Assembly (NCBI RefSeq): GCF_014202505.1
Contig: NZ_JACHGW010000002.1
Location: forward strand, 62,001-126,000
Direction: 5' to 3'
DNA: 64,000 nucleotides
DNA from: Armatimonas rosea
Lineage (GTDB): Bacteria; Armatimonadota; Armatimonadia; Armatimonadales; Armatimonadaceae
In this document: positions 2,727 through 55,207 of the stretch, one piece after another
How positions within the stretch are numbered: position 1 is the first letter of the stretch
How the letters are laid out: every line of letters starts with the position of its first letter
The notes under the pieces: generated by a model
Told to the model about the DNA's origin: nothing
The model's input: only the letters and a program-made list of their open reading frames with translations
The model's database searches: none
Translations under genes and position numbers: made by a program

Positions 2727-3770
2727 GTGACGCTCTCTCTCTTTCTTGCAAGTGCCACCCAGCGCCTCGCCGATGCGGGCATTCCCGCTGCGGAGGCCCG
2801 CACCGAGGCTCGGATTCTGGTGCAACACGCCCTCGGTCTCACCCGCGAGCAGCTGATCTTGCGCTCGGATTCCCCCGTGGATGGGGGCCAGGGGGCACTT
2901 CTGGAGCCGCTTCTAATCCGCCGTGCAAACCGCGAGCCGCTGGCCTATATCCTTGGGGAGCGCGGGTTCTACGGCCTGAGCTTTCAGGTCACCCCCGCCG
3001 TGCTCATCCCCCGCCCGGAGACGGAGCATTTGCTGGAAGCTGTGCTTGCGTTTTCGCCTCCCCCGGCCGCTCTACCTCCCCCGGCCGCTCTACCTCCCCC
3101 GGCCGCTCTACCTCCCCCGGCTCGCTTAGGCTCGCCACCCCCTCCGGCTTCGCGAAGGGGGGCGGCATCCCCTCCATCCCCCCCTTCGCAGCGAGGAACG
3201 AGCGATCAGCCGGAGGGGGGGACCGAGTGGTGCGAGGTCGGGGGAGGTAAAAAGCGCGGGGCTCTCCTGGATATCGGCACGGGCTCGGGGTGCATTGCGG
3301 TGACCCTCGCCAAGCTCTTGCCCGAGGTGCAGGTCTGGGCGACCGATATCTCCGAGGCGGCACTGGACGTAGCCCGGGAGAACGCGGTGCGGCACGGGGT
3401 ATCGGTGGAGTTTCGGCGGGGGGACTTGCTTGCGCCCTTGCCACCGGAGCTCTGCTTTGAGGTGATTGTCAGCAACCCGCCCTATATCGCCCCTGCCGAG
3501 GCACCCACCCTGGAGCCCGAGGTGCGCGACTTCGAGCCGCACACCGCGCTCTTTGACCCGAGTTTGGGGGGCGATGGGCTAACGCTCTACCGCCGACTGG
3601 CGGCCGAGGCACCGGCGCGGCTTGTGGCGGGGGGGCTGCTCGCGGTGGAGGTGGGGCAGGGGCAGGCCGAGGCCGTGGCGCAGCTCTGGCGGGAGGCGGG
3701 GTTGGCAGAGGTCGCGATCACGCTGGATCTGGCGGGGATTGGGCGCGTCGTCTCGGGGAGAAAGCCCTAG
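2727..3770 (+). CDS. prmC: Peptide chain release factor N5-glutamine methyltransferase
   Basis: PrmC methylates the glutamine of the GGQ motif in release factors RF1/RF2 using S-adenosylmethionine. The N-terminal helical domain ends at LIPRPETE (about residue 93-100). The Rossmann methyltransferase domain shows motif I (LDIGTGSG, residues 181-188) and the diagnostic N-P-P-Y at 250-253. At 347 residues it is about 60 longer than usual. The excess is a Pro/Ala/Ser/Gly-rich insertion at residues 111-174 encoded by tandem and palindromic repeats, placed in the linker between the two domains, so the enzyme may still fold. It uses a GTG start and ends 3 bases from the convergent TOBE-domain gene. 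Confidence 0.93.
   Translation: MTLSLFLASATQRLADAGIPAAEARTEARILVQHALGLTREQLILRSDSPVDGGQGALLEPLLIRRANREPLAYILGERGFYGLSFQVTPAVLIPRPETEHLLEAVLAFSPPPAALPPPAALPPPAALPPPARLGSPPPPASRRGAASPPSPPSQRGTSDQPEGGTEWCEVGGGKKRGALLDIGTGSGCIAVTLAKLLPEVQVWATDISEAALDVARENAVRHGVSVEFRRGDLLAPLPPELCFEVIVSNPPYIAPAEAPTLEPEVRDFEPHTALFDPSLGGDGLTLYRRLAAEAPARLVAGGLLAVEVGQGQAEAVAQLWREAGLAEVAITLDLAGIGRVVSGRKP
3057..3110 (+). repeat. 18-bp tandem repeat, three copies, inside prmC
   Basis: The unit CCTCCCCCGGCCGCTCTA occurs three times exactly (3057-3074, 3075-3092, 3093-3110) and starts a fourth time before diverging. It encodes the hexapeptide PPAALP in frame with prmC. It abuts the palindromic element that follows. Confidence 0.9.
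3109..3249. repeat. Palindromic element inserted in prmC
   Basis: The left end (3109-3124, TACCTCCCCCGGCTCG) is complementary to the right end (3233-3249) with one extra base and a mismatch. A nested pair, CCCCCTCCGGCT and AGCCGGAGGGGG, lies inside. The element stays open in the prmC frame. It resembles the GC-rich palindromes found between genes elsewhere in this window. Confidence 0.8.
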
Positions 3771-10300: not shown

Positions 10301-10427
10301 GCCCAATCGAATTGGGCGTCTGCAGTGGCGTTCCGCCGCAAAGCCCGTTCCGGGCTGGGGATTCCGTAGCCCGGAACGGGCTTCGCGGCTGAGGAACGAA
10401 GCCACTGCAGACGTCGGTTTTCAACCG
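10301..10427. repeat. Long quasi-palindrome, dispersed repeat
   Basis: A 13-bp arm CGTCTGCAGTGGC (10317-10329) is repeated inverted at 10401-10413. Inner arms AGCCCGTTCCGGGCT and AGCCCGGAACGGGCT face each other (10342-10356 and 10368-10382). A smaller palindrome GCCCAAT-cga-ATTGGGC precedes it (10301-10317). The right-hand part (ACTGCAGACG-TCGGTTTTCAACCGG) recurs near 20615-20640. The element extends into the end of the mannosidase gene. Confidence 0.85.
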
Positions 10428-13084
10428 GCGGCAAAAAGCCCGTTGCCCGTCCGAAGAATTTTTGGCTCGCCCAGTAGCGCGGTGTCCCACGGGAGCGAGT
10501 ACGGGACGCCCGGAAGCAGATCGAAGCAGTTATCCGCCACGGGCCGCTCACCGTCGGTATCCAAGCACACCCCCCACACAAAGACCTCCGAGCGCAGCGT
10601 GAGCACGCCCTCGTGCAGGGAAAGCACGAGGGTTGGGTTGGGGGCGAGTTTCAGCTCCTGAAAGCAGTGGAAGAAAACCCGGTGCTGGGCGACGGGCTGG
10701 TAGGTTTTATCGTAGAGCACCGCTTGGGCAAACTCGCCCGGTTTCCACGGACGGTGAGGGTCAAGTGTCGCAAGAAGAACCGTGCTGTTTGGGGGGATCA
10801 CCACGGAGCGGCTATCCTGTCTGGGATCGCAGGGACAGCAATCGGTTACCGTATCTATTTGCTCCATCAAATAGCCATGCCATTCTTGATCGGTCTCATT
10901 GATGCCGAAGACGCCAACCCCGTCTGGAGGAAGCTCAGGGTTCTCAAGAGGAGCACAGACCACACTCACGGGCTGGAAGGCTCGGCGCACTGGGTGGTAG
11001 GCGAGCTTCTTTCTTCGGTAGTAGTCCACGATAGTCCAAGAGTGGGTCGTGGGCCAGGAGTCGTTGTACATCCAGAAGATCGCGGCGGAGCTGGAGAACA
11101 TGCGGCGGCGGTAGTTGGTGATGTACTCGGTGAGGCCCTCGGCTTGGAGGAGCGCGGAGGCAAACGCGTAGGTCTCCCAGTCGAGCTGCTCGGCGTGCAG
11201 GCCGGTCCAGTGGGTGAGGGTCTGGTAGGCGCGTCCGGGCTGGCCGGGCGTCATGGGCTGCATGGCGTAGGGGTTGTCGTGGTGGTCCCAGGTGGGGGAG
11301 TTGAGCTGGCGCTGGCCCTCGGGGAGGAACTGGCGCAGGGTGGCGGGGCTCGATGCGCCCAAGACACCGCCTTCGTTGGGGAACCGATCCACATAGGTGC
11401 GATACTCCCACCAGTCGGTCGGGCCATTTTGGCGCAAGGAGACGCCCCAGGGGTGCTGGTCGCCCACGGTCGGGTCGGTGGGGTTCTCGTAGTCCGGCGA
11501 GTAGGGCGAGCTGATCCAGTAGAACGCGTAGGGGGCCTCGCGCTTGGCGATTTGGGGGAAATCATGATGAAACAGCGCGTAGTGCGGGTGCGTCCGAAAC
11601 TGCCTATCGTAGCCCCAGTTCCAGTCGCCCTCCTCGATCTCGTTGTTGCCACACCAGACCACGAGGCTCGGGTGGTGCGCGAACTCCCGCATCCCCCACT
11701 GCACCTCGCGCCGCGCCTCCGCCGCCCACTCCGGGTAGTCGCCGGGGTACTTGGCGCAGGCAAAGAGCAGGTCGTGCCAGACCAGAATCCCACGCTTGTC
11801 GCATAGCTCCAGCAGGTCGTGCCCTGCCCATGTCCCCCCGCCCCAGATGCGGAGCAGGTTGAAGTTCGCCCCCACGGCCAGGTCCACCAGCTCCTCCAGC
11901 CGCTCGGGTGTCACGGTGGAGTACAGCATGTCCGGCGGCACCCAGTTGCCGCCCTTGCAGAAGATGGGCTTGTTGTTGATCTTGAGGATAAAGTGCCTCC
12001 CCTCCTCGGGATGCGCCGACTGATCCACCTCGACCTTGCGAATCCCCACCTTGCGCAGGAGCTCTGTGTTCTCATTATCAATGGCGAGGAAGATACAGGC
12101 AGTGTACTGAAATGGCTCTCCATGACCGATTGGCCACCAGAGTTTTGGATTCGTGATCGTGACTTCCAGAAAGTGAGTTGAAATGCCTTTGCCAAGAATA
12201 AGCTGATCTTCATAGTAAGACTCATCGCCCTCAATGATTGAGAATTGAACAAACCCAGCATGCTCTTCTGAGCTGTTAATAGTTAGTTGCGCATAAACTG
12301 TTGCTTCAGAAAAATCTGGGTTTGGAATGGCATAGACTTGCAACTGAGTAATCTGAAAGGTGCCATACTCCAGCCTGACATCGCCTAAGATACCGACATT
12401 CATTAAGCGTTGTTGCCAGTCCCAGCCACGTTGCCACTGGCCTTTTCGCATCCAGTGATTCTTGGTGAGGAGCGAGAGTTGAGTGGTTTGGTAGTCCGCG
12501 CCGGGCTTGTCGGCGACGGCGTAGAGCCCGGCATCGAGGCGCACGACCAGCGTGTTTTCCTCGCCTTCGGGACGCAGTTTACCGGTGACATCGAAGCGTG
12601 CCGGACGGTGGGCGTTGGCGTGGCACCCGATTTCTTGGCCGTTGAGGTAGATCACGGCATCGTATTCGAGCAGGTCGAAGGTGAGGAAGACTTTGGCATC
12701 CCTCCCCCCTGCCCCCTCCCTTCCCCTGAGAGCCTCCTTCGTCGGCGGGAAGGGAGGGGGGGAACCCACCCCTCTGACTCCCCTCCCTTCGTCCCGACGA
12801 AGTCGGGTTTCAAGCGAAGGGAGGGGCTGGGGGAGGGATGCCGGTGTCACAAACACCTTCCGGTACACCCAGAACTGCTCCTCGACCCAGCGGGCTTTGA
12901 GGGAGTTGAGGCCGATGCGGGGATCATCGAGGAGGCCGTGGCGCATCAGGGTGGTGTGAACGGGCTCGGGGACATGGGCGGTGAGCTGGGTGCGGAGCGG
13001 GGCGGTCTCGGCGGTGAGAAACTGCGGGAAGTCGTCGTGCCAGGCGAGCGACCAGTCGCCATTGAGGGAGAGCGTCTGCGGCAT
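10421..13084 (-). CDS. GH2 beta-mannosidase
   Basis: This 887-residue protein follows the GH2 beta-mannosidase plan: an N-terminal jelly-roll (LNGDWSLAWHD; later YLNGQEIGCHANAHRPARFDV), immunoglobulin-like beta domains, and a TIM barrel with the stretch KGGNWVPPDMLY and the acid/base motif CGNNEIEEG (about residue 481). The candidate nucleophile is the Glu of PNEGG (about residue 571). It removes terminal beta-mannosyl units from oligosaccharides. There is no signal peptide. Three oddities are visible: an in-frame palindromic insertion at residues 81-130, a lower-GC middle section (about residues 218-341), and a C terminus (NGLFAAG-stop) encoded by a dispersed repeat. Confidence 0.9.
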   Translation of the reverse strand: MPQTLSLNGDWSLAWHDDFPQFLTAETAPLRTQLTAHVPEPVHTTLMRHGLLDDPRIGLNSLKARWVEEQFWVYRKVFVTPASLPQPLPSLETRLRRDEGRGVRGVGSPPPFPPTKEALRGREGAGGRDAKVFLTFDLLEYDAVIYLNGQEIGCHANAHRPARFDVTGKLRPEGEENTLVVRLDAGLYAVADKPGADYQTTQLSLLTKNHWMRKGQWQRGWDWQQRLMNVGILGDVRLEYGTFQITQLQVYAIPNPDFSEATVYAQLTINSSEEHAGFVQFSIIEGDESYYEDQLILGKGISTHFLEVTITNPKLWWPIGHGEPFQYTACIFLAIDNENTELLRKVGIRKVEVDQSAHPEEGRHFILKINNKPIFCKGGNWVPPDMLYSTVTPERLEELVDLAVGANFNLLRIWGGGTWAGHDLLELCDKRGILVWHDLLFACAKYPGDYPEWAAEARREVQWGMREFAHHPSLVVWCGNNEIEEGDWNWGYDRQFRTHPHYALFHHDFPQIAKREAPYAFYWISSPYSPDYENPTDPTVGDQHPWGVSLRQNGPTDWWEYRTYVDRFPNEGGVLGASSPATLRQFLPEGQRQLNSPTWDHHDNPYAMQPMTPGQPGRAYQTLTHWTGLHAEQLDWETYAFASALLQAEGLTEYITNYRRRMFSSSAAIFWMYNDSWPTTHSWTIVDYYRRKKLAYHPVRRAFQPVSVVCAPLENPELPPDGVGVFGINETDQEWHGYLMEQIDTVTDCCPCDPRQDSRSVVIPPNSTVLLATLDPHRPWKPGEFAQAVLYDKTYQPVAQHRVFFHCFQELKLAPNPTLVLSLHEGVLTLRSEVFVWGVCLDTDGERPVADNCFDLLPGVPYSLPWDTALLGEPKILRTGNGLFAAG
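12695..12842. repeat. 148-bp palindromic element with 14-bp terminal inverted repeats
   Basis: GGCATCCCTCCCCC (12695-12708) is repeated perfectly inverted at 12829-12842. Inside it, CCCTCCCTTC and GAAGGGAGGG recur several times in both orientations. It lies in frame within the mannosidase gene, encoding a Pro/Arg/Gly-rich loop between two strands of the first beta domain. There is no transposase, so if mobile it would be non-autonomous. Confidence 0.85.
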
Positions 13085-50155: not shown

Positions 50156-50199
50156 GGCAGTGGTGTGTTCGTGAAGGCAAAACAAGAATCCTTCTCTTG

Positions 50200-50360
50200 T
50201 CTTGCTCGCCCCCATGAACGGGGGCGTCTTGCTGTCCTCGTGCCTCGGACGGAAAGGACGCTTCGCGCCCATCCCGAGTTCACTCGGTTATGGCCGGAGG
50301 CCTTCGTGTCGGAGCCTGCGACGATAGTAAGACGCCCCCGTTTATGGGGGTGATCTTAAA
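50200..50360. repeat. Dispersed repeat R1, copy 2
   Basis: The left half (GGGGGCGTCTTGCTGTCCTC...CGCTTCGCGCCCAT, 50219-50272) matches 55094-55146. The right half (TTATGGCCGGAGGCCTTCG..., 50288-50338) matches 47343-47391. The two halves are partly inverted copies of each other. The rest of the 268-base gap up to 50423 holds no gene that I can see; it must carry the promoters for the two divergent genes. Confidence 0.75.
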
Positions 50361-50422
50361 AAGTGACATTTTCCGCGTTTTCGACCACGTTACCGCCACG
50401 CAAGAGGCGCACAATAAACAGC

Positions 50423-55078: not shown

Positions 55079-55207
55079 ATCGCCCCCGTTGGAGGGGGGC
55101 GTCTTGCTGTCCTCGTGCCTCGGACACAAAGGGCGCTTCGCGCCCATGGCCGGAACGGCCTTCGTAGCCGCAGGCTCTCTAGTCCCGCCCCTCCAACGGG
55201 CGGGACA
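55079..55207. repeat. Dispersed repeat R1, copy 3
   Basis: GGGGGCGTCTTGCTGTCCTC...CGCTTCGCGCCCAT (55094-55146) matches 50219-50272. It is bounded by CGCCCCCGTTGGAGGGGG on the left and by CCCGCCCCTCCAACGGGCGGG, itself a hairpin, on the right (55184-55204). No gene is seen here. Confidence 0.75.

Follow-up and report, generated by a model that had tools for sequence, protein, structure and literature searches.

Palindromic elements of paired hairpin units in Armatimonas rosea, with copies in frame within protein-coding genes

The GH2 locus and its palindromic element

The window (the whole stretch of DNA analysed, 64,000 nt of the Armatimonas rosea contig NZ_JACHGW010000002.1) carries on its minus strand a gene for a beta-mannosidase-like GH2 enzyme, and within this gene lies a palindromic element composed of two units arranged head to head (Table 1). 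The preliminary description had claimed perfect 14-bp ends and an in-frame position in the GH2 gene, and both were found as described. It had also placed 148 bp between the ends; the size is right, but the figure is that of the whole element, ends included. The internal repeat and its complement, which it reported as well, correspond to two further hairpins inside the element (12712–12725/12747–12760 and 12780–12791/12815–12826). Base composition alone would give a perfect 14-bp inverted pair, its arms no more than about 200 bp apart, about 0.12 times per 64 kb. Compared with 200 dinucleotide shuffles, the fold of a 158-nt stretch containing the element scored z = -7.3. The 148-bp element was found to have no coding capacity.

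Table 1. Coordinates of the palindromic element, its host gene and a second copy of the family in the window
Feature	Position	Strand	Evidence
GH2 host gene (beta-mannosidase-like), 887 aa; element at about residues 81-131	10421..13084	-	Pfam Glyco_hydro_2_N2
Two-unit palindromic element (unit, spacer, inverted unit)	12695..12842	-	14-bp terminal inversion, fold z -7.3, 53 related elements
Left terminal inverted repeat, GGCATCCCTCCCCC	12695..12708	+	exact inverted match
Unit 1, 66 nt: end motif and hairpin CCCCCTCCCTTCCC..GGGAAGGGAGGGGG	12695..12760	+	covariance model R1, 82.4 bits (C2:74695-74760:+), inverted repeat
Inter-unit spacer	12761..12779	none	
Unit 2, 63 nt, opposite to unit 1	12780..12842	-	covariance model R1, 89.1 bits (C2:74780-74842:-), inverted repeat
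Right terminal inverted repeat	12829..12842	-	exact inverse of 12695-12708
Second family copy: one diverged unit, intergenic, ~20 bp past a stop codon	56407..56469	-	covariance model R1, 55.8 bits (C2:118407-118469:-)

The Pfam profile Glyco_hydro_2_N2, a sugar-binding domain, matches the enzyme in two stretches, the better of which starts at residue 129 (profile position 65), right after the element. An alignment with homologues lacking residues 81–130 had been proposed as a check, and the segment is indeed missing from the closest homologue, a GH2 protein of 64% identity encoded by a genome of another genus (G011), where the alignment covers residues 3–82 and 132–886. The site in G011 consists of 33 nt without a palindrome (11 aa, versus about 54 aa in A. 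rosea), and more distant GH2 homologues in the alignment lack the segment as well. The aligned sequences indicate that the element is an insertion at this site and was not inherited with the protein family. In an AlphaFold2 model computed from five sequences, residues 84–128 (pLDDT 31–44) lie between strands 72–79 and 131–136, but because the model is poor overall (mean pLDDT 49.8) it points only weakly to a loop.

A second palindrome in the window was said to be in frame and of the same family. It is most likely the one at 3079–3261, which does lie in frame, in a PrmC/HemK-like ORF (2727–3770, plus strand) just before the methyltransferase motif DIGTGSG, but it is a different type of repeat; tandem copies of an 18-bp CCTCCCCCGGCCGCTCTA repeat precede it.

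Structure, dispersal and positions of the family

A genome search for further copies had been proposed, and such copies are present: 28 occurrences of the 14-bp end were counted in the 6.33-Mb genome, and none of the reversed control. BLAST with the element against its own genome returned 82 matches, and the covariance model R1, which represents one 66-nt unit, returned 92 (E <= 1e-3). The 69 units scoring at least 50 bits form 53 elements; single-unit half copies are the commonest form, and 14 of the 53 have two units. Each unit (63–66 nt) consists of GGCATCCCTCCCCC(C), 2–3 bases and a long hairpin, CCCC(C)TCCCTTC..GAAGGGAGGGG(G), whose tip is exchangeable; the conserved unit end is GGCATCCCTCC(CCC). 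Many other copies combine one unit with a second palindromic module (CACTCCCCCGCCTCGTCCCTCGGCACCCCCTCTCC..), and two copies resemble fusions of both units.

The stems covary. AU, GC, UA and CG were all found at the same pair of the tip stems, both sides changing together, while three loop bases, TTC (GAA on the other strand), are kept in nearly all units. Stem cells are paired in 98.7% of cases, with both-side changes at 8 pairs in 49 cells versus 16 in shuffles, a level that none of 500 shuffles reached. The covariation score was 0.343 (0.108 in shuffles), and sliding the partner positions abolished the stem covariation. The encoded peptides are rich in proline, glycine and arginine and the linkers are variable in homologues, features that would suit ordinary low-complexity C/G-rich linker coding sequence or chance inverted repeats. 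That explanation is extremely improbable, and is ruled out by the dispersed DNA copies: the same element DNA recurs dozens of times between genes, in either orientation and with compensatory changes.

Genes were called with a home-made codon score and Pfam, and the genome was read as stretches around the copies, a procedure by which disrupted genes may have escaped notice. Twelve of the 53 strong elements are stop-free in a reading frame whose codon signal is the same on both sides, and about three weak copies are likewise stop-free within genes with a coding signal on both sides. Nearly all the host genes carry Pfam domains. They encode the GH2 enzyme of the window, four PSD1/DUF1549 cytochromes, a halogenase-like FAD enzyme, a GT2 glycosyltransferase, an ABC-2/peptidase M1 fusion, DNA polymerase I (PolA), RecQ, an AlkZ-like protein and a WD40 protein. 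The in-gene copies sit at variable loops or linkers, in the four cytochromes always shortly after the HWAF/HWSF motif; the remaining copies are mostly intergenic, often directly past a stop codon. Two-unit copies within genes leave 4–5 of the six frames free of stops (four copies caught by the pattern), versus 1–3 for intergenic ones, and the core length is a multiple of three in 5/5 in-gene and 4/9 intergenic cases (Fisher P 0.06). This pattern of frame and stop-free length is the one to be expected if the insertions that survive are the harmless ones. The results agree with the preliminary proposal of a family of translated, non-autonomous elements, in that 12 elements lie in frame in unrelated genes; the element peptide is presumably translated and tolerated.

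Palindromes at orthologous sites

Among 150 other genomes of the phylum, a match to the family at E <= 1e-5 was found in one, a single unit in a genome of the same genus (G001). On this evidence the family is nearly confined to A. rosea; relatives with CACCCCTCCCCCCTGCCCCCTCCC ends occur in the next genus. A scan of named genomes (own genome excluded) with the unit pattern returned four isolated matches in unrelated taxa, one each in a Phycisphaerae MAG, a Chloroflexi MAG, a Planctomycetaceae MAG and Aequorivita todarodis.

Eight of the host genes are kept in G001 at 60–87% identity, together with a PSD1 orthologue at 84%. At five of these nine orthologous sites (RecQ, AlkZ-like, GT2, halogenase and PSD1) G001 has a palindrome of its own in the same linker. 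The one in RecQ has 23-bp arms (CCCTCCTCCCCGGCCCTCCTCCC) and was missed by a narrower test window; the PSD1 and AlkZ-like sites carry the palindrome CCCTCCTCCC..GGGAGGAGGG, and the GT2 and halogenase sites CTTCCTCCCA..TGGGAGGAAG. Of the CCCTCCTCCC..GGGAGGAGGG family, 65 copies are present in G001 and three in A. rosea, and ten further genomes of the taxonomic family gave none; among the G001 copies sampled, some are in frame, e.g., in a dehydrogenase E2 subunit-like gene. The PolA and PSD1 genes of G001 contain in-frame palindromes of smaller size, among them CTCGCCCCCGCAAGCGGGGGAGCC and GCCCCCACGCGTGGGGGA, which suggests that further families of translated palindromes may exist there.

Since G001 has other palindromes at the same sites, the linkers are either shared targets or places of old insertions whose sequence has been replaced. 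According to the second alternative, the in-gene copies go back to insertions in the ancestor of the genus, and their sequence was afterwards rewritten, species by species, by the family active at the time, through gene conversion or through insertion into, or replacement of, the old palindrome, rather than arising as fresh insertions at hot spots. Its chances appear close to even. The proportion of sites with a palindrome, 5/9 in G001 versus 1/24 of those tested in other genera (Fisher P 0.003), speaks for it, as do the tip module ACCCAGAGGGTACCCG, common to the G001 halogenase insert and four A. rosea units, and the build of the units as mosaics of few tips, bulges and stem lengths. Against it, the GH106 site of G001 and the GH2 site of G011 look empty, and other genera already have long, variable linkers that hold no palindrome, so that a tolerated target would suffice. 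It is tentatively suggested that some linkers in the genus are long-standing homes of translated palindromes, the position being inherited and the sequence overwritten in each species by the active family.

Outside the genus, no significant palindrome was found in the RecQ linker; an apparent one in G011 failed the shuffle test. Four genomes of one genus have neither Y1_Tnp genes nor palindromes at the tested sites, which, as they form one clade, is weak evidence.

Mode of spread and comparison with known systems

Perfect 14-bp terminal inverted repeats, a length of about 150 bp and the lack of a gene of its own are also features of a MITE, i.e., a classical terminal-inverted-repeat element moved by a DDE transposase with target duplication. 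The searches for target duplications and for a transposase with matching ends, both proposed in the preliminary description, came back negative, the latter within the Y1_Tnp genes. At the 14 two-unit copies there is no excess of flanking direct repeats (mean 2.7 observed, 3.1 shuffled). The genome has seven Y1_Tnp (RAYT-type) genes, six of them full length, and none is flanked by family ends, an absence that is not final with an assembly of 19 contigs at 98.2% completeness; nor did any RAYT gene in the relatives examined have such flanks. The transposase search was one for Y1_Tnp, and no IS-like gene was noticed in the 3–12 kb stretches read around the copies. The lack of a matching transposase and of target duplications leaves the classical element unsupported. 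The absence of direct repeats, the prevalence of one-unit half copies and the covarying stems of the hairpin units make a MITE unlikely, and the anatomy of REP-type repeats fits better.

Several Y1_Tnp genes of A. rosea are flanked by long inverted repeats, and in several genera of the taxonomic family such genes often lie within 30–150 bp near-perfect inverted repeats. Those of A. rosea have an upstream DNA motif in common (TTTTATCAGATTTGG..CCGTTATAGGGG). The window palindromes at 50193–50366 and 55080–55205 resemble, with alignment scores of 102 and 109, the flanks of the Y1 gene at C2:819986, and are likely to be related, as non-autonomous forms, to a repeat linked to RAYT. Immediately upstream of RecQ, one of the genes with an in-frame family copy, there is a truncated Y1_Tnp gene (C1:923756-925868).

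The explanation preferred here, with a probability of about 0.78, is a species-specific family of small, non-autonomous palindromes with the anatomy of REP doublets (REPIN-like), whose survivors within genes are stop-free, in frame and placed in loops or linkers. The observations that carry it are the dispersal of the copies, the covariation of the hairpins, the in-frame positions and the empty GH2 site in the orthologue from another genus. Copies would spread through the genome without target-site duplication, and most survivors would be intergenic, often just past a stop codon. Within a gene, a copy would survive only if stop-free, in frame and in a variable surface loop or interdomain linker, and the protein would simply gain about 20–55 residues. 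The absence of direct repeats, the hairpin units and the single-unit forms point to a REP-type spread via single-stranded DNA (REPIN model, PMC3116915; TnpA-REP cleavage, PMC8266576). As no Y1_Tnp gene with family ends was found and the GTAG tag is in none of the units listed (n = 44), the mobilising enzyme can only be inferred; copying by way of single-stranded DNA hairpins, on which a Y1 (RAYT/TnpA-REP) enzyme acts in trans, is possible, at somewhat less than even odds.

By analogy, the family resembles in function the Rickettsia palindromic elements (RPE) and intragenic REP dimers, both of which are known. The RPE were reportedly described by Ogata and colleagues in 2000 and 2002. Translated in-frame palindromes were long thought to be a peculiarity of Rickettsia, and scattered intragenic REPs have been recognised since. 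RPE are dispersed palindromes of 100–150 bp, many of which sit in frame within conserved genes that are unrelated to one another (PMC10969869, PMC2229807, PMC3767692), and a Rickettsia guanylate kinase with an in-frame palindrome insert is still active (PMC10969869, PMC2229807). Orthologous loci may carry different RPE groups, as with RPE-4, -6 and -7 in R. japonica (PMC3767692). The A. rosea palindromes are likewise a family of this size class found in frame in protein genes, with different palindrome groups at orthologous loci, a likeness drawn from descriptions. They differ in occurring outside the Rickettsiales (in PSD1/DUF1549-rich hosts), in being GC-rich and in having two-hairpin units.

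REP, BIME and REPIN sequences are hairpin units with an end motif, arranged mainly as head-to-head dimers and mostly extragenic near stop codons (PMC3116915, PMC8266576, PMC3733652); intragenic in-frame REP dimers have been described in Opitutus terrae, Rickettsia conorii and Thioalkalivibrio (PMC3733652). Short hairpin units, inverted doublets and copy numbers in the range of tens to thousands are shared by the A. rosea family, but its units are longer (63–66 versus 20–50 nt), do not carry the GTAG tag and have no RAYT gene beside them, so that membership in the GTAG class of REPs or in a RAYT-paired family is not indicated. MITEs such as Correia/NEMIS and ERIC (100–160 bp, with terminal inverted repeats and occasional in-frame gene fusions; PMC2229807) are similar in size, ends and gene fusions, whereas the A. 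rosea family has covarying hairpin units and single-unit forms, and no target duplication was found. What is new here is the lineage, together with the end motif, the unit's size and modular build, and the replacement of one family by another at the same site between two species of one genus. Another bacterial group thus carries putatively translated palindromes, in PolA, RecQ, glycosidases and cytochromes, and offers a system in which comparison of strains could test how proteins acquire loops from mobile DNA and whether the sites are inherited or hit again.
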